Shown here: piece after piece, positions 15,961 through 61,651 of the stretch
Numbering within the stretch: position 1 is the stretch's first letter
How the letters are laid out: each line of letters begins with the position of its first letter
Source of the DNA: Desulfurivibrio alkaliphilus AHT 2
GTDB lineage: Bacteria > Desulfobacterota > Desulfobulbia > Desulfobulbales > Desulfurivibrionaceae
Reading direction: 5' to 3'
DNA length: 64,000 nt
NCBI RefSeq assembly: GCF_000092205.1
Contig: NC_014216.1
Coordinates: 744,001-808,000, forward strand
Position numbers and translations under genes: made by a program
Notes under the pieces: model-generated
What the model saw: the letters and a program-made list of their open reading frames with translations, nothing else
What the model was told of the DNA's origin: nothing
Databases searched by the model: none

Positions 15961-15970
15961 GGCGACGGCG

Positions 15971-17434: not shown

Positions 17435-17451
17435 CAGCGGGAGATGGCACT

Positions 17452-26269: not shown

Positions 26270-26611
26270 GGGCCAAGGTGTTGGCTGATTCAAACCTTGG
26301 CTTCCTGAAAATGGCGGCCAGCATTGCCCTGACCCACCATGAGCGCTGGGATGGCAGTGGTTACCCCCACGGCCTGAGCGGTGAGCGGATTCCTTTGGAG
26401 GGTCGAATTGTGATCATCTGTGATCAATACGATGCCCTGCGCAGCGCCCGCCCATACAAAAAAGCCCTGAGCCACCAGGAAGTGGTGCGGATTATAGTAG
26501 AAGGGGATGGGCGCACGGAGCCCGGGCATTTCGATCCCGAGGTTTTGGCGGCCTTTCAGGAGATCAATCAGGTGTTTGCCGAAATTTACCTGCACTGGAG
26601 CAACGGAGACA

Positions 26612-28993
26612 ATGGCCGGTAGCGATGAGTGGTTAAAAAAGTTCCTTTGGGACGAAGGTTCGCCCAAAGGGGAAGGGTTCAGGACGTCGCCACCATGGTT
26701 AAGATGGGGTTTTGTGGTGGTAGCCGCCGCCTGGACCAGCCTGATTATGGTCCTTTGGGCGGTTGATTCATACAAGGTTTATCAGAGCTCTTTGAGCAAC
26801 GCCGAAACAGCCGCTCGCCACAGTTACAGCAAGGATATCAACTTGCGTCGCTGGGTCACCGAGCACGGCGGAATATATGTGCCGGTCACTGAGCAGACCC
26901 CTCCCAGCCCCTATTTAAGCAATCTGCCGGAGCGGGATCTGGTGACCCCCAGCGGCCGTTTGTTGACCCTGATCAATCCCTCCTATGCTGTCCGAAAGAT
27001 CAATGCCAAAGCTGACCCGGAGCTTGGGGTTTTGAGCAAGCTCACCAGTCTGCAGCCGGTTCGGCCGGAAAATGCCCCGGATGCCTGGGAGGCTGAGGCA
27101 TTGCGCCGGTTGATCGCCAATCCCGATCAAAAGGAATTTGTAGAGTTGGCAGAGGTCGACAACCAGCCTTTTTTGCGTATGATGCGAATACTTGAACCTG
27201 AACCGTCTTGTATGCAATGTCATTACACGACTGATGCCAATGTGGGGGCTGAAGGCAATGTGGGCTCGTTGCGCGGCGGGATCAGCACTTTGGTCCCCTG
27301 GCAGCCCTATCGGGAGGCTATGCTTGGCGTTTTGGCAAACCATGGCTTGGCCTATGGCGTCCTTTGGCTGATCGGGCTATTGCTCACTGGCGGCGCGATG
27401 TATATTTTTCAACTTAACTTCGCCCGACTGCAGCAGGGGGAAAATACGCTGCGCCGGAGCGAAGAGAAATACCGACGGTTGGCCGAAGGTATCGAAGCCA
27501 TCCCCTGGGAATTTGATCTCGCGGTCAACCGCTGGTCTTATATCGCCCCTCAGGTGGAAAAAATCTTGGGCTATAAGCAGGCAGAATGGACCGACTTTTC
27601 CTTTTGGGTTGACCGTATCCACCCGGAAGATCGCGAGGCGGCGGAGAACTACTGCCGGCATTACAGTGCCATGGGCGAAGACCACGTTTTTGACTATCGT
27701 TTCCAGAAAAAAGGTGGTGATTTTGCCTGGTTGCGGGATGTGGTCAGCGTTGAAAAGGCCGATGGACGCCCGGTATACTTGCGGGGAGTGATGATCGATT
27801 TGACCGGCTCCCGGCTGCTGGAGGAAAAACTGCGCCAGTCGGCCAAAATGGAGGCGGTGGGTACCCTGGCAGCCGGAGTAGCTCACGACTTCAACAATAT
27901 CCTGACCTCACTGATCAGCTTTGCCACCCTGGTTAAGCGGCGGCATCGGGATGACGAGGTCAGCCAGGATTATCTGCAGGAAATCCTCGACAGCGCCAGG
28001 CGGGCGGCGGAGCTGACCCGCAGCCTCCTGGCTTACAGCCGTAAACAGCAAATTGAACTAAAGCCGGAGGATCTCGGCAAAACGGTTGAGAAAAATCAAA
28101 AGATGCTGCGCCGAATTATTCGGGAAAACATTGAGCTCAAGTTGGAATTGATTGACCGGCCCCTGCCGGTCATGGCCGACCACGTTCAGATCGAGCAGGT
28201 GCTGATGAATCTGGCGAGCAATGCCCAAGATGCCATGCCTGCCGGCGGGCGGTTGACCATTGGCGCCGGATGGCAGGAAAAAGCGCCGTCGGAGCTGGAG
28301 TTGGTCACTGCCGGTCCTTGGGCGGTCCTGACCATGGCCGATACCGGTTTCGGGATTGACCCGGAAATCCGAAAGCGAATTTTTGATCCTTTTTTCACTA
28401 CCAAGGAAGTGGGCCGGGGAACAGGTCTAGGGCTTTCCATGGTCCAGGGTGTCGTCCAGCAACACGGCGGGGCCATCCGCTTGGAAAGTGAACCCGGCCA
28501 GGGCAGTACTTTTACTATTTACCTGCCGTTGATCAGTGAGCAAAGCAACGGGCCGAAGGAACCTGAACCTTCTACGTTCTCCCATGAAAAAAGTCAGGGG
28601 GCAACCATACTGCTGGTCGAGGATGAAGAGCAGGTGCGACGGGTTTTACAGAGGGTCTTGGAGCAGCAGGGCCACCAGGTGCTTTTGGCGGTCGATGGCC
28701 AAGAGGCATTGACTTTCTTCAGTCAAAACCCGAGTGACATCAACCTGGTGATAATGGATGTGGTAATGCCCAAGTTAAACGGCCGGGAAACAGGCTTGGC
28801 CATGCGCCGAATTAAGCCTGATCTGCCGATCATCTTAATCAGCGGCTATACCAATGATGTTGTTAACAGTGAAGATCTGGCCGCTGAAGGTTTCCACTTT
28901 ATCCACAAACCAATCGAGCCGGCGGTTCTGATCAATCAGGTCCGTGAGGTTCTGGCCGACTGCCCTTCCTGTTCTGAATATTGTGGGAAGTAA
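26612..28993 (+). CDS. Hybrid sensor kinase with periplasmic haem c (DUF3365-like) domain, PAS and receiver
   Basis: 793 residues from the ATG at 26612, which has GGAG just upstream and overlaps the end of the HD-GYP frame (TAG at 26620). Membrane helix about 31-51, periplasmic domain with HGGIYVPVTEQTPPSPYL and LEPEPSCMQCH (Cys200, Cys203, His204), second helix about 250-270, PAS (about 285-405), NtrB-like His[15 protein letters not shown] (His425), HATPase (GTGLGLSMVQGVV) and receiver (Asp716 in VIMDVVMPKLNG). The periplasmic part is a paralogue of that in the kinase at 15971-17434, so both probably read redox state or a haem ligand. Confidence 0.92.
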   Translation: MAGSDEWLKKFLWDEGSPKGEGFRTSPPWLRWGFVVVAAAWTSLIMVLWAVDSYKVYQSSLSNAETAARHSYSKDINLRRWVTEHGGIYVPVTEQTPPSPYLSNLPERDLVTPSGRLLTLINPSYAVRKINAKADPELGVLSKLTSLQPVRPENAPDAWEAEALRRLIANPDQKEFVELAEVDNQPFLRMMRILEPEPSCMQCHYTTDANVGAEGNVGSLRGGISTLVPWQPYREAMLGVLANHGLAYGVLWLIGLLLTGGAMYIFQLNFARLQQGENTLRRSEEKYRRLAEGIEAIPWEFDLAVNRWSYIAPQVEKILGYKQAEWTDFSFWVDRIHPEDREAAENYCRHYSAMGEDHVFDYRFQKKGGDFAWLRDVVSVEKADGRPVYLRGVMIDLTGSRLLEEKLRQSAKMEAVGTLAAGVAHDFNNILTSLISFATLVKRRHRDDEVSQDYLQEILDSARRAAELTRSLLAYSRKQQIELKPEDLGKTVEKNQKMLRRIIRENIELKLELIDRPLPVMADHVQIEQVLMNLASNAQDAMPAGGRLTIGAGWQEKAPSELELVTAGPWAVLTMADTGFGIDPEIRKRIFDPFFTTKEVGRGTGLGLSMVQGVVQQHGGAIRLESEPGQGSTFTIYLPLISEQSNGPKEPEPSTFSHEKSQGATILLVEDEEQVRRVLQRVLEQQGHQVLLAVDGQEALTFFSQNPSDINLVIMDVVMPKLNGRETGLAMRRIKPDLPIILISGYTNDVVNSEDLAAEGFHFIHKPIEPAVLINQVREVLADCPSCSEYCGK

Positions 28994-43846: not shown

Positions 43847-43865
43847 GTGGGAGAAAAAGTAAGTG

Positions 43866-44921
43866 ATGCAACCCAAACGTAAAATCCGGGTGCTGGTGGT
43901 GGATGACTCCTCCCTGGTCCGCACCATTCTCAGCCAGGGCCTGGCCCTGGATCCGGCCCTGGAGGTGGTGGGCAGCGCCCCCGACCCCTACGTGGCCCGG
44001 GACAAGATCGTTGAGCTCAAACCCGACGTGCTGACCCTGGATGTGGAAATGCCCCGGATGGACGGGGTGGAGTTTCTGCGGCGGCTGATGCCCCAGTACC
44101 CCTTGCCGGTGGTGATGGTCAGCGCCCTGACCAAGCGGGGCCAGCAGATCACCCTGGACGCCCTGGAGGCCGGGGCGGTGGATTTCGTCACCAAGCCCAG
44201 CACCGACGTGGCCCGTGGCTTGAACGCCATGATGCTGGAGTTGCGGACCAAGATTAAAATCGCCGCCTCGGCCAACGTCAGCCACCATAAGGAAAAACGG
44301 GCGGCCCTGTTTGCCGGCAAGGTCATCAGTGCCCCCCAAGCCCTGGCCGAATCCACCGACAAGATCATCGCCATCGGTGCTTCCACCGGTGGCACCGAGG
44401 CGATCAAGGCGGTGATCAGCCGCTACCCGGCCAATACCCCGGGGGTGGTGGTGGTGCAACACATGCCCGCCGGCTTTACCAGGATGTTTGCCGAAAGGCT
44501 CAACGAGATCTGCCCCATGCAGGTCAAGGAGGCGGCCAGCGGTGACCGGGTAATGCCGGGGCGGGTGCTGATCGCGCCGGGGGAGCAGCATATGCGGGTG
44601 CTCCGTTCAGGCGGCATTTACCAGGTGGAATGCCGCCCCGGTGAAAAGGTTTCCGGCCATTGCCCCTCGGTGGACGTGCTGATGCACTCGGTGGCCGAGC
44701 AGGTCGGGCGCAACGCGGTGGGGGTGATGCTCACCGGCATGGGCCGGGACGGGGCGGCGGGAATGCTGGCCATGCGCCAGGCCGGTGCCCGCAATATCGC
44801 CCAGGACGAAAAGACCTCGGTGGTCTTCGGCATGCCCAAGGAAGCTTTGGCCAACGGTGGGGCCGAAAGGCTGGTGCCCTTGGACCAGATCGCCGAAGTT
44901 TCACTGTCGCTGTTGACTTAA
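43866..44921 (+). CDS. cheB: Chemotaxis response regulator protein-glutamate methylesterase CheB
   Basis: Removes methyl groups from receptors after phosphorylation by CheA. 351 residues from ATG 43866; a GTG one codon upstream is in frame. Receiver with Asp59 (LTLDVEMPRMDG) and C-terminal esterase with the catalytic triad Ser173 (IGASTGGTEAI), His199 (VQHMPAGF) and Asp295 (GMGRDGAAGM). Located 19 bases after cheR and 29 bases before cheA. Confidence 0.96.
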   Translation: MQPKRKIRVLVVDDSSLVRTILSQGLALDPALEVVGSAPDPYVARDKIVELKPDVLTLDVEMPRMDGVEFLRRLMPQYPLPVVMVSALTKRGQQITLDALEAGAVDFVTKPSTDVARGLNAMMLELRTKIKIAASANVSHHKEKRAALFAGKVISAPQALAESTDKIIAIGASTGGTEAIKAVISRYPANTPGVVVVQHMPAGFTRMFAERLNEICPMQVKEAASGDRVMPGRVLIAPGEQHMRVLRSGGIYQVECRPGEKVSGHCPSVDVLMHSVAEQVGRNAVGVMLTGMGRDGAAGMLAMRQAGARNIAQDEKTSVVFGMPKEALANGGAERLVPLDQIAEVSLSLLT

Positions 44922-44950
44922 AAGCGGTTGAGAAGAGGAGAAAGAAAAAA

Positions 44951-47263
44951 ATGGCAAGTCAAATCAGTGCCGATCAGCTGGAAATAATTCGGGAATTCAT
45001 CCAGGAGTGCACCGATCTGCTGGATCATCTGGAGCCGGTGATCGTCGGCTTCGGGGAGTTCACCCGGGACGGCGACTTCACCCCCGGAGAGGAAAATATG
45101 GCCATCCTGCACGAGGTTTTCCGGCTCTTTCATTCCATCAAGGGCAGTGCCGGTTTTTTGAATTTCAGCCACATGTCCACCACCGCCCATGCCGCTGAGA
45201 ACCTGCTGGACAAAATCCGCAAGGGTGAAATGGCCATGAACGCCGGGCATGTGGACCTGCTCTGCGCCACCTGCGATTTCATGCGGGGCTGCCTGGACGA
45301 AGTGGCGACCGGCTACAGCGACGAGGGCATGGCCGCCAAGGCCGCCGAGTTGACCGGCAGCCTGAAACATTCCCTGGCGGCCGACAGCCCGGCGACCGCG
45401 CCGGCGGCCCCGGCTTCGAGTCCGGGTGCCGCGCCCAGGTCGGCCGGCGGGGCGGAAGCGGCGGCGGAGCTGGAAATCGAGGTAACCCCGGAGATGATTA
45501 CCGCCTTCGTCCAGGAGGCCGGGGAGCAACTCCAGGCCCTGGAAGAGGGTTTTCTGGCCTGGAGCGACAAGGGCGAAGAGGCCACCGATATCGGTGAACT
45601 CTACCGCAAGATGCACAGCTTCAAGGGCAACTGCGGCTTTGTCGGGCTGGCCGATCTGGAAAGACTAAGCCACCGGATGGAAACCGTACTGGACGTGGTC
45701 AAGGCCGGCTCCGGCAAGGCCCGGGCCAAGCCCGCCGATGCCCTGCTCAACCTCTGCGATGTGCTGAAAGAGGCCCTGACCGACCTGGCCGCCGGGGGCC
45801 AAGGCAAAATCGACGGTCTTGATCTCTATCTTGACCTGCTCAACGACCTGATCCCCACCGGCTGGGGGGACAACCCGGTGCGGTCCAGGGCGCCCAAGCT
45901 GGGGGAAATTCTCTTGGCCCAGGGTCGCATCACCGAGGATACACTGGATGAGGCATTGAGTAGCCAGGCTCGGCCGCTGGGCGAGATCCTGGTGGAGAAG
46001 GGTGCGGTAACGCCGGAGGATGTTAACCAGGCCCTGGCCAGCCAGCAGCAGGCGGCGGGGGCACCACGGCCGGCGGCCGCCCCGCCGCCGGCGCTGAAAA
46101 GGCAGGACCTGCGGGTGGACCTGGAAAAAATCGATACCCTGATCAACCTCATCGGCGAATTGGTCATCTCCGAGAACATGCTGGTCAACAACCCGGACCT
46201 GGAAGGGCTGGAACTGGAGAACTTCGCCAAAACGGCCCAGCAGATGGGCAAGATCGTCAAAGAGTTGCAGGAAGTATCCATGGCCATCCGAATGATTCCG
46301 GTTTCCGGGCTGTTCAACCGGATGACCCGCCTGGTACACGACCTTTCTCGCAAGTCCGGCAAGAAGGCCGAGCTGGTGCTGGGCGGTACTGAAACCGAGG
46401 TGGACAAGACGGTGATAGAAAAGGTCACCGACCCGCTGGTGCATCTGATCCGCAACTCCATGGACCACGGCCTGGAAAATGGCGAAGAGCGCAAGGCCGC
46501 CGGGAAGCCGCCCACCGGCACCCTGCGCCTGAGTGCCAGCCACGAAGAGGGCGCGGTGTTGATCCGGCTGGAAGATGACGGCCGGGGGCTCAACCGGGAT
46601 AAGATCCTTGCCAAGGCCCGCGAGAAGGGGTTGCTCGACGGCGATGGCAGCGAACTCAGCGACAAGGAAGTGGCGGCAATGATCTTTCAACCCGGTTTTT
46701 CCACCGCCGATCAGGTCACCGATGTTTCCGGCCGGGGGGTGGGGATGGACGTGGTCAAGCAAAACCTCAACCAGATCAAGGGTAAGATCGATATCGACAG
46801 CCAGCCGGGCCGCGGCACCGTGATCAACCTGCGGATTCCGCTGACCATGGCCATCCTCGACGGGATGATGGTCCAGGTCGGAACCAGCCGCTACATTATC
46901 CCCACCCTCTCCATCCGGGAGTCTTTCCGGCCGGCCCCCGAGGCCGTCACGGTCAACCCCGATGGCCTGGAGATGGTGAGGGTACGGGAGAATTTTTACC
47001 CGGTGATCCGGCTCCATGAGCTGCACCAGATCGAAGCGGCGGTGGAGGAGCTGGGGCAGGGTATTCTGGTGCTGCTGGAAAATCAGGATCGCTGTATCTG
47101 TTTGCTGGTTGACGAAATTATCGGCCAGCAGCAGACGGTGATCAAGGGGCTTTCCGAATATATCGGCAGAATTGGTCAGGCCAGCTGTGTTTCCGGCTGC
47201 ACCATAATGGGCAACGGCGAGGTTTGCCTGATTCTCGATGTTGGCAGCCTGACGGAACTTTAA
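44951..47263 (+). CDS. cheA: Chemotaxis histidine kinase CheA with two Hpt domains and MshEN-like insert
   Basis: 770 residues, ATG behind GAGGAGAAAG. Order: Hpt1 with FHSIKGSAGF (His61); Ala/Pro linker; Hpt2 with MHSFKGNCGF (His222); two short repeats LGEILLAQGRITEDTLDEAL and LGEILVEKGAVTPEDVNQAL (314-366) resembling the N-terminal MshE/PilB nucleotide-binding motif; dimerisation domain (387-450); HATPase (HLIRNSMDHGLEN, DVSGRGVGMDVVK); C-terminal CheW-like domain (about 625-770). A conventional P2 CheY-docking domain is not evident. MshEN modules in ATPases can bind c-di-GMP, so the insert might link c-di-GMP to kinase activity; that is inference. Confidence 0.94.
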   Translation: MASQISADQLEIIREFIQECTDLLDHLEPVIVGFGEFTRDGDFTPGEENMAILHEVFRLFHSIKGSAGFLNFSHMSTTAHAAENLLDKIRKGEMAMNAGHVDLLCATCDFMRGCLDEVATGYSDEGMAAKAAELTGSLKHSLAADSPATAPAAPASSPGAAPRSAGGAEAAAELEIEVTPEMITAFVQEAGEQLQALEEGFLAWSDKGEEATDIGELYRKMHSFKGNCGFVGLADLERLSHRMETVLDVVKAGSGKARAKPADALLNLCDVLKEALTDLAAGGQGKIDGLDLYLDLLNDLIPTGWGDNPVRSRAPKLGEILLAQGRITEDTLDEALSSQARPLGEILVEKGAVTPEDVNQALASQQQAAGAPRPAAAPPPALKRQDLRVDLEKIDTLINLIGELVISENMLVNNPDLEGLELENFAKTAQQMGKIVKELQEVSMAIRMIPVSGLFNRMTRLVHDLSRKSGKKAELVLGGTETEVDKTVIEKVTDPLVHLIRNSMDHGLENGEERKAAGKPPTGTLRLSASHEEGAVLIRLEDDGRGLNRDKILAKAREKGLLDGDGSELSDKEVAAMIFQPGFSTADQVTDVSGRGVGMDVVKQNLNQIKGKIDIDSQPGRGTVINLRIPLTMAILDGMMVQVGTSRYIIPTLSIRESFRPAPEAVTVNPDGLEMVRVRENFYPVIRLHELHQIEAAVEELGQGILVLLENQDRCICLLVDEIIGQQQTVIKGLSEYIGRIGQASCVSGCTIMGNGEVCLILDVGSLTEL

Positions 47264-47303
47264 CAACCTTGAGTAAAACGTACTGTTAAGCGAGGGGTGA
47301 AAG

Positions 47304-47399
47304 ATGGAAGTCAAGAACCGGAAAAAGGTTGCGGAGGCTGTTTTGGTTGACCTCAGTGCGTTGAAAACCAATGCCAGTGGCAGGAATGGTCATGGCTGA
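47304..47399 (+). pseudogene. 5' part of the Hpt gene, out of frame with the rest
   Basis: ATG 47304 follows GCGAGGGGTGAAAG and reads 31 codons, ending VLVDLSALKTNASGRNGHG and a TGA. The residues DLSALKTNASGRN followed by MADKLAEHIREAL from the next frame give a normal Hpt N-terminus, so one extra base near 47388-47392 probably split the gene. Alternatively it is a leader ORF with restart at the overlapping ATG 47392. Confidence 0.5.
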
Positions 47400-47685
47400 T
47401 AAACTGGCGGAGCATATCCGGGAGGCGCTGCCTCAAAGCCTGGCTCAATTGCGCCAAGCGATTGATGACAACAACCCCCGGGAGATGAGCCGCCAGGCCC
47501 ATGCCCTGAAAAGTCCGCTGGCCACCTTTGGCGCCTTGGGGGCCTTCAGGCTGGCCCGGGAAATGGAATTGCGGGGGGAGGCGGGTGATATGAGCCGTTC
47601 TTTGGCCCTGCTGGTCACCCTTGAAGGTGAAACGCAGCGTATTATTGATTTTTTTAACGATCCTGACTGGCGGGATCAAGTTTAA
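47371..47685 (+). CDS. Histidine phosphotransfer (Hpt) domain protein, N-terminus affected by frameshift
   Basis: About 95-104 residues with the Hpt helix RQAHALKSPLATFGA (phosphoacceptor His44 counting from ATG 47371). In-frame ATGs at 47371, 47386 and 47392 have weak or no ribosome site, while a strong one precedes the out-of-frame ATG at 47304. It lies between cheA and a CheY-like receiver, suggesting a relay step within the chemotaxis system. Helices 2-4 that carry the histidine are intact, so the shortened product may still work. Confidence 0.75.
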   Translation: MPVAGMVMADKLAEHIREALPQSLAQLRQAIDDNNPREMSRQAHALKSPLATFGALGAFRLAREMELRGEAGDMSRSLALLVTLEGETQRIIDFFNDPDWRDQV

Positions 47686-47717
47686 ACAGTGCCGCAGACA
47701 TCAAAAGGAGAGACAGG

Positions 47718-48119
47718 ATGAGAACACTGGTGGCGGAAGATGATTTTGTCAGTCGGACGGTTTTGCAGGAAATCCTGACACCCTATGGCACCGTCCACCT
47801 GGCGGTGGACGGTGAGGAGGCCCTGGCGGCCTACGAGCGGGCCATTACCACCAGACAACCCTACGATCTGATCTGCCTGGATATCATGATGCCGAAACTG
47901 GACGGCCAGGAGGTTTTGCGCCGTATTCGGCAGCGGGAGAAAGAGCTGGGCATCGGCGGCTCGGATATGGCCAGGATCCTGATGGTCACCGCCCTGGGGG
48001 ACGCCAAGAACATCATGACGGCCCTGGTCAAGGGTTCCTGCGAGGGTTACCTGGTCAAGCCCATCCGGCGCGAGAAGCTGTTGGAGCAGTTGCGTAAACT
48101 GGACATGATCCAGGAATAA
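47718..48119 (+). CDS. CheY-like single-domain response regulator
   Basis: 133 residues consisting of one receiver: acidic pair EDD at 7-9, phosphoacceptor Asp55 in LICLDIMMPKLDG, Thr in MVTALGD and Lys-Pro in VKPIRREKL. The ATG follows AAAGGAGAGA. It comes straight after cheA and the Hpt gene and so is the likeliest CheY of this cluster, although other stand-alone receivers are at 49668 and 50556. Confidence 0.93.
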   Translation: MRTLVAEDDFVSRTVLQEILTPYGTVHLAVDGEEALAAYERAITTRQPYDLICLDIMMPKLDGQEVLRRIRQREKELGIGGSDMARILMVTALGDAKNIMTALVKGSCEGYLVKPIRREKLLEQLRKLDMIQE

Positions 48120-48139
48120 AACAGCCTGAGGCCGCCGGC

Positions 48140-48640
48140 ATGTTGAAAAGCAAAGTGGTGGGAGTGGGCGAGTTCGCCGTTTCCAGCGATCCGGGGGAGG
48201 TGGTGAAAACCTTTGCCCTGGGTTCCTGTGTGGCGGTGATCTTTCTCCACAAGCCCACCCGCACCGTGGGGCTGATCCATGTCGCCCTGCCGGAATCGTT
48301 GATCAGCCCGGATATCGCGGCCAAGCGCCCGGGCTACTTTGCCGATACCGGGGTGGAGGCCATCCTCAAGGAGATGGGCAGGTGTACCGGGACCTGCAGC
48401 ACCAAGCTGGCCCAGGGGATGGTGGTCAAGATGGCCGGGGGGGCCAACGTGATGGATGCCAACAACACCTTCAATATCGGTAAACGCAATATTTTGGCCC
48501 TGAAAAAGATCCTCTGGCCTTTGGGCATGGGGCCGGTGGCCGAGGATGTGGGCGGGGGGATCAGCCGCACGGTGGCGGTGACGGTGGGAACCGGGCGGGT
48601 GATGCTGTCGTGCGCCGCCAAGGGGGAGTGGGAACTATGA
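48140..48640 (+). CDS. cheD: Chemoreceptor glutamine deamidase CheD
   Basis: Deamidates receptor glutamines and, in CheC/CheX-containing systems, links receptor state to the CheY phosphatase. 166 residues with the triad positions known from Thermotoga CheD: Thr24, Cys30 (TFALGSC) and His47 (GLIHVAL), then the KMAGGANVMDANNTFNIGKRN stretch. Its TGA overlaps the next ATG (ATGA). A CheX-like protein encoded 1.4 kb downstream would be a possible partner. Confidence 0.95.
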   Translation: MLKSKVVGVGEFAVSSDPGEVVKTFALGSCVAVIFLHKPTRTVGLIHVALPESLISPDIAAKRPGYFADTGVEAILKEMGRCTGTCSTKLAQGMVVKMAGGANVMDANNTFNIGKRNILALKKILWPLGMGPVAEDVGGGISRTVAVTVGTGRVMLSCAAKGEWEL

Positions 48641-49494
48641 AAAGTAAAGAGCAAAAGGCGGCGATTGACCAGGCCATTGGCCGTTTGCCCCGCCTTTCCG
48701 CCGCCGCCATCCGCCTGTTACGCCTGGTCCAGGAGCCCGATCATGGCCTGGCCGAGGTGGTGGCCATCGTCAAAAATGATGCCCTGCTCACCTCCCGGGT
48801 TTTAATGGTGGTCAACTCGCCGGTTTATGGTCGCCTAAACAAAATAACCGGCATTGACCACGCGGTGTCCCTGCTGGGGGAAGACCTGGTGGTGGGGGCG
48901 GCCATGAAAGAGGCCGCCGGCCTGCTACTGGACAAAAAACTCGACGGTTACGCCGCCGAGGAGGGGGAGTTGTGGCGGCATAACCTGAAGACCGCCCTGG
49001 CCGCCAAGATCCTGGCCCGGCAAACCACCGGCAAGGTCGCCCCGGAACTGGCCTTTACCTGTGGCCTGCTCCATGACTTGGGCAAGGCGGTGATCTCCGA
49101 TTACCTGGGGGATAACGCCGGCCGGATCCGCCGGGCGGTGGAACAGGGCAAAGTGGCCGATTTCCTCGCCGCCGAGCGGGTTTTGCTGGGGATTGATCAT
49201 GCCGAGGCAGGCTTTACCATCGCCACCAAGTGGTCCCTGCCCGTTCCCCTGCCCGAGGTCTGCCGCTTCCACCACACCCCCGGCCAGGCCCCGCCGATGT
49301 GGCGGGAGTTACTCTACATTGTCCACCTGGCCGATATTGTTGCCATGCTCTCGGGGGTCGGCACCGGGGCCGACACCCTGCAGTACCACCTGGATAGAAA
49401 TTATGAAGCTTACCTGACCCTAGACGAAAAGGGGCTGCCCATGGTGGTTTTGCAGGTGGAGGAGGAGTTTAGCAAGGTGGCGGAGGTTTTTTAG
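48637..49494 (+). CDS. HDOD domain signalling protein
   Basis: 285 residues, start ATG 48637 overlapping the cheD stop. HDOD domain (about residues 10-205): LPRLSAAAIRLLRLVQEPD, ALLTSRVLMVVNSPVYG, ITGIDHAVSLLGED, AFTCGLLHDLGKAVISDYL. HDOD is a degenerate HD fold without proven hydrolase activity, often found with c-di-GMP and chemotaxis proteins. The HD pair in LLHDLGK is retained. Ends just before a palindromic repeat. Confidence 0.9.
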   Translation: MKSKEQKAAIDQAIGRLPRLSAAAIRLLRLVQEPDHGLAEVVAIVKNDALLTSRVLMVVNSPVYGRLNKITGIDHAVSLLGEDLVVGAAMKEAAGLLLDKKLDGYAAEEGELWRHNLKTALAAKILARQTTGKVAPELAFTCGLLHDLGKAVISDYLGDNAGRIRRAVEQGKVADFLAAERVLLGIDHAEAGFTIATKWSLPVPLPEVCRFHHTPGQAPPMWRELLYIVHLADIVAMLSGVGTGADTLQYHLDRNYEAYLTLDEKGLPMVVLQVEEEFSKVAEVF

Positions 49495-49543
49495 GAAGGA
49501 GTAACCGTGCACCAGTAGTACTGACTTACCGGTCAAACGGGCC

Positions 49544-49651
49544 GTAATCGTTCAGCAGTGCCGCAGATTCGGGCAAGCAGCCAGGTGCAGCGTACACCGG
49601 GTACTCAAGCCTGGCTGATCGCCCGAAGGTGCGGTGCTGCTGAACGATTAC
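49544..49651 (-). repeat. Long palindromic intergenic repeat, copy 2
   Basis: Read on the minus strand this matches copy 1 (13550-13656) closely through GCAGCACCGCA-C/T-CTTCGGGC, GATCAGCCAGGCTTG and GCTTGCCCGAATCTGC. The outer arms here are GTAATCGTT / AACGATTAC instead of GCAAACGT / ACGTTTGC, and the loop is GTAC-CCG-GTAC. It lies between the HDOD gene and a CheY-like gene; the ribosome site of the latter follows immediately. Confidence 0.85.
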
Positions 49652-49667
49652 AGGAAGGGAGGAGTTT

Positions 49668-50069
49668 ATGCGTATTGTTATCGTGGATGATTCCGCCACC
49701 GCCCGGATGTTCATCCGGCGTTGCCTGGAAATCGCCGGTTTCCGGGAGGCGGAGATCATTGAGGCGGAAAACGGCCGCCAGGCCCTGGAAACGATCCGGC
49801 GGCAACGAGTGGATCTGGTACTCACCGATCTGACCATGCCGGTGATGGATGGCTCCACCCTGCTTAAGTGGATGAAAAGCAACCCTGAGCTGGCCGACAC
49901 CAAGGTGCTGGTGGTAAGCAGTGCCGGCAATCCCGCCAAGGAAAAAGAATTACTGGAACTGGGAGCCATGGCGGTGCTTGGCAAGCCGGTCTCCCCGGCC
50001 AGGATCAGCGCCCTGTTGCAGGGCCTGCTGCCACCGCAGAGTGAGCCAAAAGGATGGGACGATGAATGA
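49668..50069 (+). CDS. CheY-like single-domain response regulator
   Basis: 133 residues, one receiver: VDDSATARMFIRR at the start, Asp54 in LVLTDLTMPVMDG, Ser in VVSSAGN and Lys-Pro in LGKPVSPARI. Preceded by AGGAAGGGAGGAG. It overlaps the following CheX-like gene by eight bases, so receiver and phosphatase are probably a matched pair. Confidence 0.93.
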   Translation: MRIVIVDDSATARMFIRRCLEIAGFREAEIIEAENGRQALETIRRQRVDLVLTDLTMPVMDGSTLLKWMKSNPELADTKVLVVSSAGNPAKEKELLELGAMAVLGKPVSPARISALLQGLLPPQSEPKGWDDE

Positions 50070-50571
50070 GACAAGTGCTTGGGATGAATTGTTGCCCAAG
50101 GTGATGGCGGAGGTCATGGAAAATACCGCCTTCACCGAGGCTCGGCCGGTGGCCGAGGCGCCGTGCTTTGACGAGGGGGTGAGGAGTGTCGCCCTGTTGG
50201 TCCACGACCCGGTGCAGGGGGAGTTTCGTCTGCTGATGGCCGAGCCCCTGGTCAAGCATCTGGCCGCCACGGTGTATGGTCCGGTGCTGGAGGAGATTGA
50301 CGAAGCGATCGAAAACGATTTTCTGGCCGAGTTGCTCAACACCATTGCTGGTCGTCTGCTGGGGGAGATGCTGCCCCCGGAGTGCAGTTTTCAGCTGGGC
50401 CTGCCCGAGTCGCGGGAGGGCCTGGCGGCCTGTTCGCACCCACCCTGCCTGAGTTGGCATTTCACCATCGAAGAGCTGAACTGCACCATCTCCCTGCACG
50501 GTGAAACCCTGCTGGCCTTGCGGCGGCCGCCGACCCCCGCCGATGATGAGGCCGGTTATTCCTTTTTGTAG
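50062..50571 (+). CDS. CheX-type CheY-P phosphatase
   Basis: 169 residues from ATG 50062. The CheC/CheX/FliY family dephosphorylates CheY-P; the catalytic ExxN signature is present as AELLNTIAGRLL (Glu90, Asn93). Only one such helix is obvious, as in CheX. Starts inside the end of the CheY-like gene. The last 16 bases overlap the last 16 of the convergent minus-strand cheY-like gene. Family call rests on the motif and length; overall similarity is modest. Confidence 0.8.
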   Translation: MNETSAWDELLPKVMAEVMENTAFTEARPVAEAPCFDEGVRSVALLVHDPVQGEFRLLMAEPLVKHLAATVYGPVLEEIDEAIENDFLAELLNTIAGRLLGEMLPPECSFQLGLPESREGLAACSHPPCLSWHFTIEELNCTISLHGETLLALRRPPTPADDEAGYSFL

Positions 50572-50954
50572 CGTGTTATTACCTGGTTGATGCTCTCCTT
50601 GAGTTTTTCTATTTTAAAGGGTTTCAGTACGTAGCCTTTGGCGCCGGCTTCAATGGCCTCAATGACCATCTGCTCCTGGCCGTGGGAGGTGACCATGATG
50701 ATCAGGGCGTCGGGGTCCATGGCCAGGATGCGGCTGGTGGCGGCGATGCCGTCCATTTCCGGCATGGTGATATCCATGGTTACCAGGTCGGGCCGGGGTA
50801 AGCCTTTGTCTTTAAGGTACTTGAAGGTCTCCACCGCTTCCATGCCGCTTTTGCAGGTTTTGCTTACCTGGTGACCAAGCTGCTCCAGCATGGCCCCCAG
50901 TTTTTTTATGGTTAAAGCCGAGTCGTCGACAACCATTATCTCGAGATTAGTCAT
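50556..50954 (-). CDS. CheY-like response regulator of the hydrogenase-kinase operon
   Basis: 132 residues from ATG 50954, chosen for the AGAGGGAA upstream; a further ATG five codons earlier is in frame. Receiver with VVDDSALTIKKLG, Asp61 in LVTMDITMPEMDG, Thr in MVTSHGQ and Lys-Pro in VLKPFKIEKL. The start overlaps the CheX-like stop by eight bases. Last gene of the five-gene minus-strand operon; it should receive phosphate from the dihaem kinase. Confidence 0.93.
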   Translation of the reverse strand: MTNLEIMVVDDSALTIKKLGAMLEQLGHQVSKTCKSGMEAVETFKYLKDKGLPRPDLVTMDITMPEMDGIAATSRILAMDPDALIIMVTSHGQEQMVIEAIEAGAKGYVLKPFKIEKLKESINQVITRYKKE

Positions 50955-51489
50955 TGATTCCCTCTGCATAGTCCAGGTTCATGGTAAAAAAATCTTTCGG
51001 TCCGACAAAATGAATACTCATCAGGCCGGCGCCGGTTACAATTTGAATGGTCCGGAAAGTCGCCCCTTTGTGACGGGTAATGGTTTTGGCTTCATTGATC
51101 ACCACCGGGGGGGTAATAGAAATGGTTTTCCCTTTTGTCTCATGGCCGGCAATGGCGTTGCCCGCCACGATGTTAATCATTTCCGCCACTGCTTCCTCCC
51201 GCATCTCATCCCGTTCATCGTCGGCGATTTGCAACCCTTCGGCACTGGCGGTAAGAATTTTTTCGGCCAGGTCATGGTCGAAGCTGAAGGCCACCAGCAA
51301 GCGGATTTCCGCGTCCAGAGCCAGGATTGAGGTCAATTCCCGCAACTGCATCCGCACCACGTCCTCCCCGGCCTGGTACGCCTTGTTTACGGGGATTTCC
51401 AGCTCCTCCTTCAGGTATTCGATGGTCCGTTTGCCGATGGCCTGCATCAGGCGGCGCACCCGGCCGCTATTGAGCTTGTCGTTGCTCAT
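50947..51489 (-). CDS. CheX-type CheY-P phosphatase of the hydrogenase-kinase operon
   Basis: 180 residues from ATG 51489, with GGAGGAG upstream inside the end of the kinase gene (23-base overlap). The catalytic ExxN is clear in EEAVAEMINIVAGNA (Glu103, Asn106), as in Thermotoga CheX. A N-terminal helical extension of about 40 residues precedes the domain. Being between a CheA-like kinase and a CheY, it would reset the response. Confidence 0.86.
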   Translation of the reverse strand: MSNDKLNSGRVRRLMQAIGKRTIEYLKEELEIPVNKAYQAGEDVVRMQLRELTSILALDAEIRLLVAFSFDHDLAEKILTASAEGLQIADDERDEMREEAVAEMINIVAGNAIAGHETKGKTISITPPVVINEAKTITRHKGATFRTIQIVTGAGLMSIHFVGPKDFFTMNLDYAEGIND

Positions 51490-53815
51490 CACTCTCCTCC
51501 GCGGTGATGTTTATCGGTTTTTTCTCCAGATAAGGCAACCGGAAGCGGAAAGTCGTGCCCTGCCCGGGGGTTGATGTTACCTCGATGCGACCGCCAAGTC
51601 TCTCCGTTTCAGCCTTCACCGCTGCCAGTCCCACGCCGCGGCCGGATAACTCATCGGCCTGGTCCTTGGTGGTGAACTGGTCATCGAAGATCAGCAGGTG
51701 GAGTTCCGCCGGTTGGGCGGCGGCGGCCTGGTCGGCACTCAGGCGGCCGAGTTCCACGGCCTTGCGGCGAATGCTTTCGGCATCCAGGCCGCGGCCGTCG
51801 TCGCTGATTTCCAGGATAATCTCGTCGCCCTCTTGCCGCACCAGGCAGTGGAGGTGTCCCTCCTCCTCCTTGTCCTGCTCCCAGCGCTCTTCCGGTGTTT
51901 CAAGGCCGTGGTCCACCGCGTTGCGGAACAGGTGGACCAGAGACTTGCTGAAAGGCGCGTAAATCTCGGGTGCCACCAGCAGGTCTTGATCATCGATCTC
52001 GATGGGGGCCAGCTCTTTTTCCCGGCGTTCGGCCAGTTTTTGCGCCGCTTTGGCGTGGCCGGCCAGCAGGTTGCGAAACGGAACGTAGCGCAGCCGCTGC
52101 AGCCGTCGGAGCATGGTTTGGGTCTCCTCGCTGTCCAGGCTCGGGCCTTGGCCGTGCAGCAACCGCTCGGCCAGATTTTCCAGCATCTCCACTTCCTCGG
52201 CGGCCAGCAGAAGCTGGCCGCGACGGGTAAAAAAGGCTTCTCCCAGGGTCTCACGCAGGATCAGCAGGTCCTGCTCCAGGGCGGCGTCGGCCTGCTGCAT
52301 TTGGTGTTGCCATTCCCGGGGGTCGGGGGTTTGTCCGGCCTTTTCCTGGTCTTGCCGCAGTTCTGTTTCGAGCTGGTGCAGGCTGCGGGGCAGGTGAATG
52401 AACTCCAGTTGGCCGAATAGTCCTTTGAAGGTGTGGACCTGGCGATAGATCTCGTTTATGGCCGATTCCCGGTCGCCGGCGGCGGCATCAAGCAGCCGGG
52501 GCAGTTCCTGTTGGCCGAAGCGGCGGTAATCGTCCAGGACCTCGAAAAGCTCCGCCGATTCGGTGGCGGCGCAGACAATCAGCCGCAGCCGGGTCTGTTC
52601 CTCGGCGACCTGGGACTCCAGGCGCAGTTTTTCGGTGATATCGGTGATGACCAGCATCATCAACCGCTCACCGATGAGCCGGTAATCGACTTCCAGCTCA
52701 CGGTCGTTGAGTTGAAAATGGCCGGGCAGCAGGGAGAGCAGGGTTTCGCGTTTGAACTCATCAGGGGTTTCGAAAATCCGCCGGATATTATCGCCCAATC
52801 GGCCGGCCTCCGGCTCGTTGGCGGAGCACAGAAGCTCGGTGATGGGTTTGCCGCTCAGTTCGGCGCCCAGCAGAGTTTCGCACTCCCGGCTGTATTCCGG
52901 TTCCACTCTCAGGTCGGGGCCGAAGGAGAGAAAGCCCTGGCCGGAGTTGTCGAGCAGGCCGCTCAGGCGCCCACTTTTTTCAGTCAGTTGTTGCCGGGTG
53001 ACCAGGATCTGGCGGTACATGGTGGCCACCAGGAAGGTAACCGCCAATATCAGGGCGGCGTTGAGCAGCAGAAAGTAGATCAGGCGGCGGGTGTTTTCGT
53101 GGGCCTGGGAGAGAAAGGCGCCCTTGTCCATACTGACCCCCAACACCCCGGCCAACTCGCCGACTCGCCAGTTGGTGTGGCAGACCAGGCACTGGCTGTC
53201 CACCGGGATCCGTTCATAAAAGTGAGCGGTGCGACTGCCCAGTGCTTCAGCCCGGCCCCGATCATTGAACGAGATACCCTGGTCGAGCTGGAAATGGCAG
53301 TCGGCGCAAGGCTGCCCGGCCACCTGGCGCAGGTGTTGCCGGCCGCTGGGGGAGTTGCTGCGATCCTCCAGGTTCCAGTCGTCACGCAGGAACATCCCCC
53401 TGGTTTGGCGGTAAAGCTCCTCGTTGGGGTTGATGAGATTGCCCTGGCTGTCGCGGACAAAGGGGATGCCGACGGTAACCTTGCCGGAACGGTAGTTCAT
53501 CAGACCGTCGCGATCGTAAAGGGTGGTTGCGACCACGCCTTCCAGTTGGGCGATGTTGTCCATAACCAGGGCGAAGGATTTGCGCTGCCCTTTTTCGATG
53601 GAATCCCTGGTCTGGGTGATGTAGTTGGCGAGCACCCCGTAACCCTGATCCCGGATCATCGCCTCGGAGGTCTGGAGCTGGTAGTGGTGAAAAAGCACCA
53701 TGGCCGGCAGGGAGGTCAGCAGCAGGCAACAAAAAACGATGCCCATGAACCGGCCCCGCACCCGTTCCGGGTCGCTGTTGCTCAACCATTGCCGCCAGGC
53801 CGGTGGTGGAGTCAT
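51467..53815 (-). CDS. Dihaem membrane sensor kinase with PAS, Hpt and CheA-like ATPase
   Basis: 782 residues. Helix 22-43; periplasmic domain 44-245 with two haem c sites, CADCH (Cys170, Cys173, His174) and CLVCH (Cys209, Cys212, His213); helix 246-266; PAS-like region about 280-400; Hpt with VHTFKGLFGQ (His461); helical region; CheA-type HATPase with HLFRNAVDHGLETPEERW and DELSGRGVGLAAVK. There is no CheW-like C-terminal domain and no HisKA, so phosphorylation is Hpt-based as in CheA but without array docking. The start overlaps the hydrogenase small subunit stop by four bases (ATGA). The haem pair could take electrons from the hydrogenase; this is inference. Confidence 0.9.
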   Translation of the reverse strand: MTPPPAWRQWLSNSDPERVRGRFMGIVFCCLLLTSLPAMVLFHHYQLQTSEAMIRDQGYGVLANYITQTRDSIEKGQRKSFALVMDNIAQLEGVVATTLYDRDGLMNYRSGKVTVGIPFVRDSQGNLINPNEELYRQTRGMFLRDDWNLEDRSNSPSGRQHLRQVAGQPCADCHFQLDQGISFNDRGRAEALGSRTAHFYERIPVDSQCLVCHTNWRVGELAGVLGVSMDKGAFLSQAHENTRRLIYFLLLNAALILAVTFLVATMYRQILVTRQQLTEKSGRLSGLLDNSGQGFLSFGPDLRVEPEYSRECETLLGAELSGKPITELLCSANEPEAGRLGDNIRRIFETPDEFKRETLLSLLPGHFQLNDRELEVDYRLIGERLMMLVITDITEKLRLESQVAEEQTRLRLIVCAATESAELFEVLDDYRRFGQQELPRLLDAAAGDRESAINEIYRQVHTFKGLFGQLEFIHLPRSLHQLETELRQDQEKAGQTPDPREWQHQMQQADAALEQDLLILRETLGEAFFTRRGQLLLAAEEVEMLENLAERLLHGQGPSLDSEETQTMLRRLQRLRYVPFRNLLAGHAKAAQKLAERREKELAPIEIDDQDLLVAPEIYAPFSKSLVHLFRNAVDHGLETPEERWEQDKEEEGHLHCLVRQEGDEIILEISDDGRGLDAESIRRKAVELGRLSADQAAAAQPAELHLLIFDDQFTTKDQADELSGRGVGLAAVKAETERLGGRIEVTSTPGQGTTFRFRLPYLEKKPINITAEESDEQRQAQ

Positions 53816-54792
53816 TCCGTGCCTCCCCGCTCCCGGCGGTATGGAGCAATGCTGTCTCCCTGCAGCAGCCCTTTGCGCACCCGGGGGTCGTCGTAAAGAT
53901 GATAAAGGACCGGCCGGGGAAAAAGCTCACTGGCGCAGCCGATACAAGGGTGGCCGGCCCGCAGGCAGTAGTTGCTGTTGCCGTTGTAACCGTTGCCGGG
54001 GCAGTCATTGTAGGTGACCGGTCCCTGGCAGCCCAATTCCAGCAGGCAGCCCTCCTCCCAGATGTGGCGGGCAAAGTCCTGTTCCTGGAACGAGGCGTAA
54101 CGGGGGCAGCGCTGGTGGATGGTGTGACTGAAAAAACGGTTGGGGCGACGACGGCCGTCCAGTTCCGGTAAACTCCGGTGACGCATGAAGTACAGCAGGG
54201 TGTAAACCAGGTGCTCCGGTTTCATCGGGCAGCCGGGCAGGTTGACCACCGGGGTCTTGATTCCTTCCTGAGCCAGATGCTCGGTCAAGGAAACCACCCC
54301 GGTGAGGGTGCCGGGCATGGCAGCCACGCCGCCGGAGACAGCGCAGGTGCCGGCGGCCAGGCAGGCGCTGGCCCCCGCCGCCAGCCGGCTGACCCAATGG
54401 CCCAGGGGTTGATGGTCAAGCATACAGGCATGGGGCATGGTGGCCGGGATTCCGCCTTCCAGGACCAGGAGATAAGGTTCATCGCCATCGGCCAAGGTCG
54501 AAAGCAACTCCCCCACCTGGTTGCCGGTGGCCTGGGCCAGGTTGGGGTGGTAAAGCAGGCGACTGAACTGGGTCAACAGGTCCAGCACGGTGATCTGTTC
54601 GATATTGAGCAGGGAGATGGAGCAGCCCGAACAGGAGGAGCCTTGCAGCCAGACCAGGTTGGGGCGCGGCCGGGAGCGCTCATCTGCTTCGGCGGCCAGC
54701 AGCTCTTCAAAGGAGAGCAATGGCGCCGCCCCGGCGGCGATTACCACCCGGTAAACTTTTTTCAGGAATTCCCGGCGACTGAACGGAGTCAT
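53812..54792 (-). CDS. [NiFe] hydrogenase small subunit with Tat signal peptide
   Basis: 326 residues. The N-terminus has SRREFLKK and a hydrophobic stretch ending near EELLAAEA, a Tat export signal. The iron-sulfur subunit pattern is complete: GSSCSGCSISLLN for the proximal cluster, GTCAVSGGVAA, LPGCPMKPEH, then the distal and medial cluster cysteines in RCPRYASF, CLLELGCQGPVTYNDC and NSNYCLRAGHPCIGC. Length is close to periplasmic group 1 small subunits without their C-terminal anchor. It follows the large subunit by nine bases, the reverse of the common small-large order, and overlaps the dihaem kinase gene. No maturation genes are nearby. Confidence 0.92.
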   Translation of the reverse strand: MTPFSRREFLKKVYRVVIAAGAAPLLSFEELLAAEADERSRPRPNLVWLQGSSCSGCSISLLNIEQITVLDLLTQFSRLLYHPNLAQATGNQVGELLSTLADGDEPYLLVLEGGIPATMPHACMLDHQPLGHWVSRLAAGASACLAAGTCAVSGGVAAMPGTLTGVVSLTEHLAQEGIKTPVVNLPGCPMKPEHLVYTLLYFMRHRSLPELDGRRRPNRFFSHTIHQRCPRYASFQEQDFARHIWEEGCLLELGCQGPVTYNDCPGNGYNGNSNYCLRAGHPCIGCASELFPRPVLYHLYDDPRVRKGLLQGDSIAPYRRERGGTE

Positions 54793-54801
54793 GAAACCTA
54801 C

Positions 54802-56370
54802 CTAGTGCACGGAACAGGCAATGCAGGGATCCGCCGAGCGGGCGATCCGCGCCGCCTCCAGCGGTTGCTCCGGGTTGCTGATCCTGGTTCCCAGCAGCAT
54901 CTTTTCCACCGCCCCGGGCTTGCCGGCGGCATCTTTGGGGCCGAAATTCCAGGTGGAGGGCACCACCAGTTCATAATTTTTGATCAAGCCGTCTTTGTCG
55001 GTTTCCAGCCAGTGCCCCAAGGCGCCCCGGGAGGCCTCGGTTATCCCCACCCCCCGGGCGTTGCGCGGCACTTCCCGTTCCTCAAACCCCAGCACGCCAT
55101 CCTTTACCATTTCAAGCTGCTCCTTAAGCCGGCCGATGATCAGGGCCGCCGAGAGGTAACGGCTGAGGTGGCGGCCCATCACCGAGTTGTAATCGGCCAC
55201 GGTTATGCCAAGCTCCCGATTGGTGTGGTCCACCAATTCCTTCAGAGCCTGGTTGCCGCCTTGGTGGTAGCTGTTGACGATGCGGGCCGCGGCCCCGACT
55301 TCCATGACCTCGCCGCGATAGCGGGGAGCCCGGCTCCAACTGTACTTGCCGCCTTTTCGCTGCTCTTCCCGTTGGAACTCCTGCCAGTCCAGGGGGGTGA
55401 GGCGGCTGGTGGCCAGGGGCGGCAGGGCGGTGCCGGATTGCTGGCGGTAAAAGGCGTAGGTGTGATCTTCGTTGATGGCGTCAAGCTCCAGAGGTTGGTG
55501 TTCACCGTTCAGCAGGGCGCCCCCGGCAAAGAGGTGATTGTCGCCATCGGCCTCGGGCAGGAAGGGAAAGGAGAGAAAGTTGCCGTAACCCCGGCCTTCC
55601 TGGAAGTAGTGCGGAAAGGCCCGGCAAACGCTGAAGATGTCTTCGCGGTAGGGTCCCAGCACAAAGGCTTCGGCCCGCCGCAGCAGGGTGCGATATTGGG
55701 CCAGCATTCCCAGGGTGGGCCGGGTGGTGACCCCGCCGGCTTCAATGGCCACCGGGTGCGGCGCCTTGCCGCCGAAAATGGCCACCATCTTCTGCAAATC
55801 GGCCAGCAGGGTGAAGTTGGCAAAGTAGTTGCGGACCAGCAACAGGCTGTCGGTGTCACCCGGCAGTTGATCGTCGTGGCGGTAACGGGGCAGGAACGGG
55901 GCGCCGGGGAAGATCCGGGATGAACGGACTTCTTCCTCCACCCATTGGCGAACTGCCGCCAGCACGGGATCGCCGCCTTTGTAGGCCAGTACCGCCTCAA
56001 TATCGATGAAATCCAGGGCGCTCAGTTGGTAGAAGTGCAGCAGGGAGTCATGCACCAGGTAGGCGCCGGTGATCAGGTTACGCAGCAACTGGCCGTTGGC
56101 GTTGGGGCGGATGCCCATGGCGTCTTCCAGGGCCAGGGCGGCGGCTTCGGCATGAGCATATGGGCAGACCCCGCAGACCCGCTGGGTGACCTGCTGGGCC
56201 ACCCGGGCGTCGTAGCCGATCAGCGCCTTCTCCAGGCCGCGGAAGAGCAGGCCGGCGGCCCGGGCCTGGGTGATCACCCCATCTTCCACCCGGGTTTCGA
56301 TCTTAAGATGCCCTTCCACCCGGCTGAGGGGGTCAATGGTAATCCGCTTGCTCGTGCCGCTCTCATTCAT
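54802..56370 (-). CDS. [NiFe] hydrogenase large subunit lacking the C-terminal extension
   Basis: 522 residues from ATG 56370 (start SRVEGHLKIE typical). Nickel ligands: first pair in QRVCGVCPYAHAEA (Cys66, Cys69), second pair in DPCIACSVH at the very end (Cys516, Cys519). The stop codon comes directly after the last His, whereas catalytic hydrogenases normally carry about 15 more residues that a protease removes after nickel insertion. Absence of that peptide is known for regulatory (HoxC/HupV) and CooH-like subunits. Together with a Tat-signal partner and co-transcribed kinase this suggests a sensing role, not certain from sequence. No good ribosome site is seen before the ATG. Confidence 0.92.
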   Translation of the reverse strand: MNESGTSKRITIDPLSRVEGHLKIETRVEDGVITQARAAGLLFRGLEKALIGYDARVAQQVTQRVCGVCPYAHAEAAALALEDAMGIRPNANGQLLRNLITGAYLVHDSLLHFYQLSALDFIDIEAVLAYKGGDPVLAAVRQWVEEEVRSSRIFPGAPFLPRYRHDDQLPGDTDSLLLVRNYFANFTLLADLQKMVAIFGGKAPHPVAIEAGGVTTRPTLGMLAQYRTLLRRAEAFVLGPYREDIFSVCRAFPHYFQEGRGYGNFLSFPFLPEADGDNHLFAGGALLNGEHQPLELDAINEDHTYAFYRQQSGTALPPLATSRLTPLDWQEFQREEQRKGGKYSWSRAPRYRGEVMEVGAAARIVNSYHQGGNQALKELVDHTNRELGITVADYNSVMGRHLSRYLSAALIIGRLKEQLEMVKDGVLGFEEREVPRNARGVGITEASRGALGHWLETDKDGLIKNYELVVPSTWNFGPKDAAGKPGAVEKMLLGTRISNPEQPLEAARIARSADPCIACSVH

Positions 56371-61117: not shown

Positions 61118-61651
61118 ATGAACGGTAAAGGAAAAAAGTTGGTTTTAACGGCGGCACTGATGATGGGGCTGGCAGTGCCGGCGACCCTGATGGGGCAAAC
61201 GGCGGCCGAGGAACGGGGCCAGGCTTTGTTTAATGATCCTAAGGCCTTTGGCGGTCAGGTGTCCTGCAACTCCTGCCATCCCGGGGGGCAGGGGCTGGAG
61301 CGATCCGGGACCAAAACCAGATTCAGGATCATGGGTGAGCGACAAAACAGTTTGGCCGAGGCGATTAACTTCTGCATCATCAACGCCAACAAAGGTGAGG
61401 CCATCGCCGAAGACTCTCGGGAGATGCAGGATATGATCGCCTATATCAAGTCCCTGGCCGCGCCGGCGCCGGCTTACGGCCCGCCCCCGCCCGTCCCCGG
61501 CCCGGGTTACGGGGTACCGCCCAGGCCCAGGGCACCGGGTTATGATATGCCACCGGCTCCTCCGGGGCCCGGTTATGGAGTGCCGCCCAGGCCCAGGACG
61601 CCGGGTTATGATATGCCACCACCCCCCCCGGGACCGGGTTACGGCCGTTAA
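61118..61651 (+). CDS. Exported monohaem c-type cytochrome with Pro/Gly/Tyr repeat tail
   Basis: 177 residues, ATG behind AAAGGAGGTGG. A signal peptide (about 1-29) precedes a small cytochrome domain with CNSCH (haem site, about residues 51-55), TRFRIMGERQNSLAEAINFCI and an ending DMIAYIKSLA typical of class I cytochromes. From residue 113 the chain becomes Pro/Gly/Tyr rich and contains two 22-residue repeats (128-149, 150-171) and a third partial one. Such a tail is extended and may anchor the protein to cell wall or other cytochromes. The flank 61652-61798 shows no gene and no clear terminator. Confidence 0.85.
   Translation: MNGKGKKLVLTAALMMGLAVPATLMGQTAAEERGQALFNDPKAFGGQVSCNSCHPGGQGLERSGTKTRFRIMGERQNSLAEAINFCIINANKGEAIAEDSREMQDMIAYIKSLAAPAPAYGPPPPVPGPGYGVPPRPRAPGYDMPPAPPGPGYGVPPRPRTPGYDMPPPPPGPGYGR
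61499..61630 (+). repeat. Two tandem 66-bp coding repeats in the cytochrome tail
   Basis: Unit 61499-61564 is repeated at 61565-61630, each encoding GPGYGVPPRPR-x-PGYDMPP-x-PP; a partial third unit ends at the stop. The in-frame unit length allows copy-number change without frameshift. Confidence 0.85.

Follow-up and report, generated by a model that had tools for sequence, protein, structure and literature searches.

A [NiFe] hydrogenase encoded beside periplasmic haem receptors in Desulfobacterota, and a probable hydrogen receptor operon in Desulfurivibrio alkaliphilus

The genome of Desulfurivibrio alkaliphilus AHT 2 is a single contig of 3,097,763 bases, of which we analysed a stretch of 64,000 nucleotides (NC_014216.1, positions 744,001 to 808,000), here called the window and used for all coordinates unless another source is named. 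At 50556-56370 the window carries five minus-strand genes in the order HydL-HydS-dihaem kinase-CheX-CheY, encoding the two subunits of a [NiFe] hydrogenase, a membrane kinase with two haem-binding motifs, a phosphatase and a response regulator. Their features are as follows.

54802..56370, minus strand: HydL, [NiFe] hydrogenase large subunit, 522 amino acids (PF00374, E 1e-131)
53812..54792, minus strand: HydS, hydrogenase small subunit, 326 amino acids (PF14720 and PF01058)
54688..54792, minus strand: twin-arginine translocation (Tat) export signal of HydS, SRREFLKK..., read from the sequence; the RRxFL motif is kept in relatives
51467..53815, minus strand: dihaem membrane kinase, 782 amino acids (Pfam and alignment)
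53294..53308, minus strand: first CxxCH of the kinase, residues 170-174, within an insert of about 45 residues peculiar to the kinase (alignment)
53177..53191, minus strand: second CxxCH of the kinase, residues 209-213, which corresponds to the one haem site in hydrogenase-linked methyl-accepting chemotaxis proteins (MCPs) (alignment)
52283..52543, minus strand: Hpt domain, kinase residues 425-511 (PF01627; Pfam and alignment)
52433-52435, minus strand: His461 in HTFKG, predicted phosphorylation site of Hpt, invariant in the alignment
51530..51943, minus strand: HATPase_c domain, kinase residues 625-762 (PF02518; Pfam and alignment), with N box HLFRNAVDHG, DDGRG and GRGVGL
50947..51492, minus strand: CheX-type CheY-P phosphatase with an ExxN motif (AEMINIVAGN) (PF13690, E 1.3e-14)
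50556..50954, minus strand: CheY-type single receiver with DD, MDITMPEMDG, T/S and KP residues (PF00072 and alignment)

The genes are tightly packed, with a gap of 9 bases between HydL and HydS and overlaps of 4 bases between HydS and the kinase (ATGA), 23 bases between the kinase and CheX, taking the ATG at 51489 as the CheX start, and 8 bases between CheX and CheY; a promoter scan gave nothing above chance. This layout had been described in a first-pass annotation of the window, and both the sequence and Pfam bear it out. The same annotation placed enzyme and sensor together in the periplasm, which agrees with the Tat signal of HydS and with the position of both CxxCH sites between the two hydrophobic segments of the kinase. 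That protein is ordered as a first transmembrane helix (TM1), a periplasmic haem-Cache-like domain, TM2, a linker with a PAS-like region, Hpt and HATPase. The description of the kinase as CheA-like holds for its Hpt (P1) and HATPase (P4) domains alone, and its two CxxCH sites are likewise present, but neither a dimerisation (P3) nor a CheW-like (P5) domain is found at Pfam thresholds; both occur in the true CheA at 44945-47263. CheX and CheY each retain catalytic-looking residues, in keeping with the earlier proposal that the one resets the other.

The RxCGxC and DPCxxC ligand motifs are invariant throughout the aligned HydL clade, and HydL ends exactly at DPCIACSVH, without a C-terminal maturation peptide. 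Among 63 HydS sequences the four medial cysteines, the distal His-Cys3 set and the other proximal cysteines are present in every one, and the proximal C60 in 61; from these ligands three [4Fe-4S] clusters are predicted. Only 16-40 residues follow the last cysteine in the same 63 proteins, so HydS would have no membrane anchor, and the Tat signal is present in HydS and in all aligned kinase-type relatives. The best PDB and NCBIfam matches of the hydrogenase are group 1 NiFe/NiFeSe families, although the scores against the equivalog NF033181 (486 bits for HydL, 565-576 bits for the MCP-type relatives) lie below its cut-off of 600. Selenocysteine in the C-terminal motif was considered and rejected, because the in-frame stops of some relatives do not fall at the nickel-ligating cysteine. 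Nor does the missing C-terminal peptide single out this operon as sensory, since hydrogenases with 39-47% identity to HydL share it; following those enzymes led to the wider family described below.

Within the order, for which 243 genomes were searched, close HydL homologues (68-92% identity) occur in eight genomes besides D. alkaliphilus. The same eight, together with G091, whose contig starts inside the operon, have kinase homologues that extend over the sensor domain. Except at contig ends, the order HydL-HydS-kinase-CheX-CheY is found at each of these loci. The nine further carriers represent three genera and two families, and include Desulfurivibrio sp. AMeS2 and Deltaproteobacteria metagenome-assembled genomes (MAGs) from groundwater, lake and other sources. 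The linkage that the first-pass annotation had treated as open to refutation is thus regular in both directions: every close HydL homologue with enough contig adjoins the kinase, and the reverse also holds. Because the five-gene order recurs amid different flanking genes, its proteins being 53-95% identical, it reflects more than chance. In the kinase alignment the CxxCH motifs, HTFKG and the ATPase boxes are invariant, and the ExxN of CheX and the aspartates and lysine of CheY are conserved in the rows shown.

Facing the operon on the plus strand is a chemotaxis cluster (43863-50571: CheB, CheA, Hpt, receiver, CheD, HDOD, CheY and a second CheX). Its CheX gene (50065-50571) shares 16 bases at the stop end with the convergent operon CheY. 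That the operon is merely part of this cluster is ruled out, as homologues of the cluster do not flank it in relatives. In AMeS2 (L059:2371-6859) the operon adjoins relatives of the genes at 14635-19137; in D. alkaliphilus about 31 kb separate those genes from the operon, and the region has therefore undergone rearrangement. In MAG G105 (L068:9154-11567) the kinase is present as two open reading frames (ORFs) that meet between the sensor/linker and Hpt, through either a sequencing error or a split kinase.

Behind each of the next-nearest hydrogenases, those at 39-47% identity to HydL, lies an MCP gene with a single CxxCH. One such pair, an extension-less hydrogenase followed by a single-haem MCP, is found in D. 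alkaliphilus itself, outside the window (G000:C1:608740-612748; L092:4741-8749). We therefore tallied 113 comparison loci from the phylum with hidden Markov models (HMMs) for HydS and the haem sensor as well as for the two outputs, the MCP signalling domain and the kinase core, run on all three forward frames; longest-ORF calling misframed the GC-rich loci L195, L196, L199 and L220. At 68 of the 113 loci the large subunit ends exactly at DPCxxCxxH. HydS lies downstream at all 68, and a haem sensor domain follows HydL by about 1.0-1.4 kb at 67, the miss (L219) being at a contig end. The other 45 large subunits carry a C-terminal peptide, with HydS upstream at 42 of these loci and a sensor at none. 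Among loci with enough downstream sequence, the sensor follows the hydrogenase in 65/65 extension-less but 0/42 extension-bearing cases (Fisher 9e-31). Since the sensor HMM was trained on many of the tallied loci, the fair test is provided by loci fetched later from other orders; in this independent set the sensor was found at 14/14 extension-less and 0/24 extension-bearing loci (p 1e-10), both p-values being made too small by shared ancestry. Clustered at 70% identity, the HydL sequences form 17 MCP-type, 2 kinase-type and 18 extension-bearing clusters.

In the reciprocal search of the order's 243 genomes, for which only the sensor-domain profile was used, 58 strong sites came up. Comparison with the hydrogenase matches, and direct inspection of three unresolved sites, placed 57 of them immediately behind hydrogenase genes or, at contig ends, what is left of such genes. 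The association of this hydrogenase with this sensor is thus nearly exclusive both ways. At locus L104 it extends to a complete chemosensory pathway, HydL-HydS-MCP-CheA-CheW, in which CheA has CheW and receiver domains by Pfam, and L117, L118, L120, L128 and L131 resemble L104 by profile match and gene length. The kinase core with CheX and CheY is also found at L093 and L095, where no hydrogenase is present and the sensor in front is a receiver domain or of the dCache type, which indicates that the output cassette is modular. FliG is present in 44/45 carrier genomes against 135/198 others of the order, a comparison confounded by phylogeny, and in two more carriers, G042 and G019; this distribution fits a motility output.

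In a FastTree phylogeny of HydL, the extension-less sequences fall into one split (support 0.986), which also takes in one extension-bearing sequence, L197. The ten kinase-type sequences form one clade (support 1.0) nested among the MCP-type sequences, and the kinase form is therefore most simply read as derived from the MCP form by a change of output. On this evidence the single-haem MCP would be the ancestral-type partner, relative to the kinase of the window, and the first-pass annotation, which had considered the operon alone, missed this wider context. Its phosphorelay reading agrees with the periplasmic location, the intact cluster ligands and the residues of CheX and CheY, but the module appears to belong to a family of hydrogenase-coupled chemosensory receptors rather than to stand as a single phosphorelay. 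The interloper L197 has HydS upstream and lies near a gene for a multihaem protein, yet falls inside the extension-less clade; it is perhaps a reversion to a metabolic role.

What the two receptor types share is the periplasmic domain. Those of the kinase and the MCPs align over S(L/I)E(R/K)GQxxxF...G...LY and CxxCHxxW, and the kinase insert, about 45 residues long and bearing the other CxxCH, has no counterpart in the MCP sensor. Across 57 sensors (49 MCPs, 8 kinases) the shared CxxCH and the tryptophan that follows it are invariant. A Pfam scan of the kinase sensor gave no match, and none to PF11845 (Tll0287/sCache_heme) at E 0.01 or better, so PF11845 was rejected as a label for it; the genome-wide search with that family finds other sites only, 9 in all. 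Two of the proteins concerned are further membrane histidine kinases in the window, with PF11845 periplasmic haem domains (15971-17434 and 26507-28993). Profile-profile comparison with the PF11845 domains of the same genome nevertheless aligned the haem half (hhalign, 96.5%). An AlphaFold model of the same genome's MCP sensor, built from 54 sequences, had a predicted local distance difference test score (pLDDT) of 89.4, and Foldseek matched it to the Cache sensor of WalK and to the haem-c MCP sensors GSU0935 and GSU0582. By homology to this MCP domain, the kinase sensor is predicted to be Cache-like. Candidate distal haem ligands are the methionine of RGQM in the MCP form and the invariant His161 and His198 in the kinase form.

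From these findings we consider it probable that the operon encodes a periplasmic hydrogen receptor in which HydLS feeds electrons from H2 to the kinase haem and a CheY/CheX relay carries the signal onward. According to this model, HydLS would be exported by Tat as a soluble heterodimer and dock on the haem-Cache domain that the membrane kinase exposes to the periplasm. There it would oxidise H2, or equilibrate with it, and electrons would run through the three [4Fe-4S] clusters to the haem or haems, whose redox state would be the signal. The resulting change of conformation across the membrane would set Hpt/HATPase autophosphorylation, the phosphoryl group would pass to the co-encoded CheY, and CheX would strip it off again and so reset the signal; the output may be the flagellar motor or another target. 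In the more widespread and putatively ancestral version, the same type of hydrogenase would feed a haem-Cache MCP, giving an H2 chemoreceptor that sometimes has its own CheA and CheW. The most likely role of the hydrogenase is accordingly that of the H2-input subunit of periplasmic haem-Cache receptors.

Several observations weigh against this model. One haem MCP (L233:6810-8282, G050 contig 49) is an orphan with no hydrogenase beside it, although the same genome has a complete locus. The kinase sensor modelled alone, with 10 close homologues, reached a pLDDT of 45 and is unusable. The RGQM methionine is invariant in MCPs but replaced by arginine in kinases, so that the candidate distal ligand differs between the two forms. 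Finally, haem-Cache proteins fused to signalling modules have, where tested, bound nitric oxide (NO) and behaved as NO sensors (PMC12889525), and a haem in such a protein therefore need not mean an electron acceptor.

It could be argued that HydLS is a metabolic uptake hydrogenase feeding a periplasmic cytochrome pool, and that the haem receptor samples this pool in a form of energy taxis that is not specific to H2. The active-site and cluster ligands do look fully catalytic, and a redox-responsive haem domain would fit. However, no other electron acceptor, be it cytochrome c3, cytochrome b or an anchor, was seen in these operons, HydS is without a C-terminal anchor, the extension-bearing relatives never carry the sensor, and the exclusive pairing suggests a dedicated partner; we regard this explanation as unlikely. 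Somewhat more doubtful still is that the receptor senses NO or another gas while HydLS keeps its haem ferrous, H2 being the power supply and not the signal. The NO binding just cited would allow it, but the other haem-Cache receptors of the same genome, at the 9 PF11845 sites, have no part in the pairing of this hydrogenase family, and the two haem sites of the kinase together with the invariant His161 and His198 would suit electron-transfer haems. That the genes share an operon only because both serve life with H2, with no physical or electronic coupling, is the least probable account: shared operons do not prove interaction, but an association exclusive both ways across the phylum, with one sensor type on two outputs (MCP and kinase), points to coupling through the sensor domain.

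Large subunits of the cytoplasmic group 2b sensors are not known to carry a C-terminal maturation peptide, and HydL and the 68 extension-less relatives have none either. As in HoxBC-HoxJ and HupUV-HupT, the hydrogenase would provide the H2 input to a histidine kinase. The H2-sensing HoxBC has three [4Fe-4S] clusters by Moessbauer data, unlike the usual group 1 enzymes (PMC5665086), and the same number predicted for HydS from its ligands is a resemblance, not functional proof. The differences are nonetheless considerable. HoxBC and HupUV are cytoplasmic, whereas HydLS carries a signal for export by Tat. They work with a soluble PAS kinase that has no haem c (HoxJ/HupT) and with an NtrC-type regulator; the partner of HydLS is a haem receptor kinase with two TM segments, encoded along with CheX and CheY, or an MCP in relatives. 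Among named families HydLS matches group 1 NiFe/NiFeSe enzymes best; our tree was built without HoxC/HupV sequences. With the group 1 periplasmic enzymes HynAB and HysAB it shares a Tat-exported heterodimer and the same active-site and cluster ligands, but it differs from them in its reversed L-S gene order, in the absence of the C-terminal peptide, in large-subunit scores below the NCBIfam equivalog cut-offs and in having a sensor gene in place of cytochrome or peptidase genes. The sCache_heme proteins (DUF3365/Tll0287, PF11845; GSU0582, GSU0935) offer a likeness on the receptor side, namely a periplasmic Cache fold with covalent haem c and MCP or kinase outputs; the fold with CxxCH is modelled for the MCP-type homologue and assigned to the kinase by alignment alone. 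Unlike them, the present sensor escapes PF11845 and is tied to a hydrogenase, and the kinase has a second haem site on its insert.

Among [NiFe] enzymes HydDB classes 2b as histidine-kinase-linked and 2c as diguanylate-cyclase-linked, with no MCP-linked or periplasmic sensory class, and among [FeFe] enzymes it lists groups C1-C3, of which C2 is putatively MCP-linked (PMC5037454). Group C2 thus resembles the present family in that its hydrogenase, too, has been proposed as the input to chemotaxis, but it has another metal class and belongs to another protein family. It was also the only mention of hydrogenase-linked chemoreceptors or H2 taxis that we found in the open-access literature, where no [NiFe] counterpart came up, subscription papers not being searchable. 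Localisation, cofactor route and receptor type all differ from those of known [NiFe] sensors.

Elsewhere in the window are a transposase-like gene (24937-26229, IS256-type by eye) and a gene for a small monohaem protein that is exported and cytochrome-like, its repetitive tail being rich in Pro and Gly (61118-61651).

Sediments and syntrophic communities rely on H2 as a key currency, and how sulfur-cycling bacteria sense it externally is what is at stake here. The near-invariant pairing of hydrogenase and haem receptor across the phylum suggests that cells sense outside H2 through an enzyme. We lean, a little less firmly than for the operon itself, towards a phylum-wide sensory [NiFe] class outside the cytoplasm, in which H2 would be read as electrons delivered to a Cache haem and would drive either H2 taxis or a kinase-CheX-CheY relay. 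If so, this class would be marked by the absence of the C-terminal peptide, the L-S order and an adjoining haem-Cache receptor, and many genomes would need re-annotation, such enzymes being otherwise taken as H2-uptake capacity. It would also be an example, open to test, of an enzyme signalling through the transfer of electrons to a receptor.

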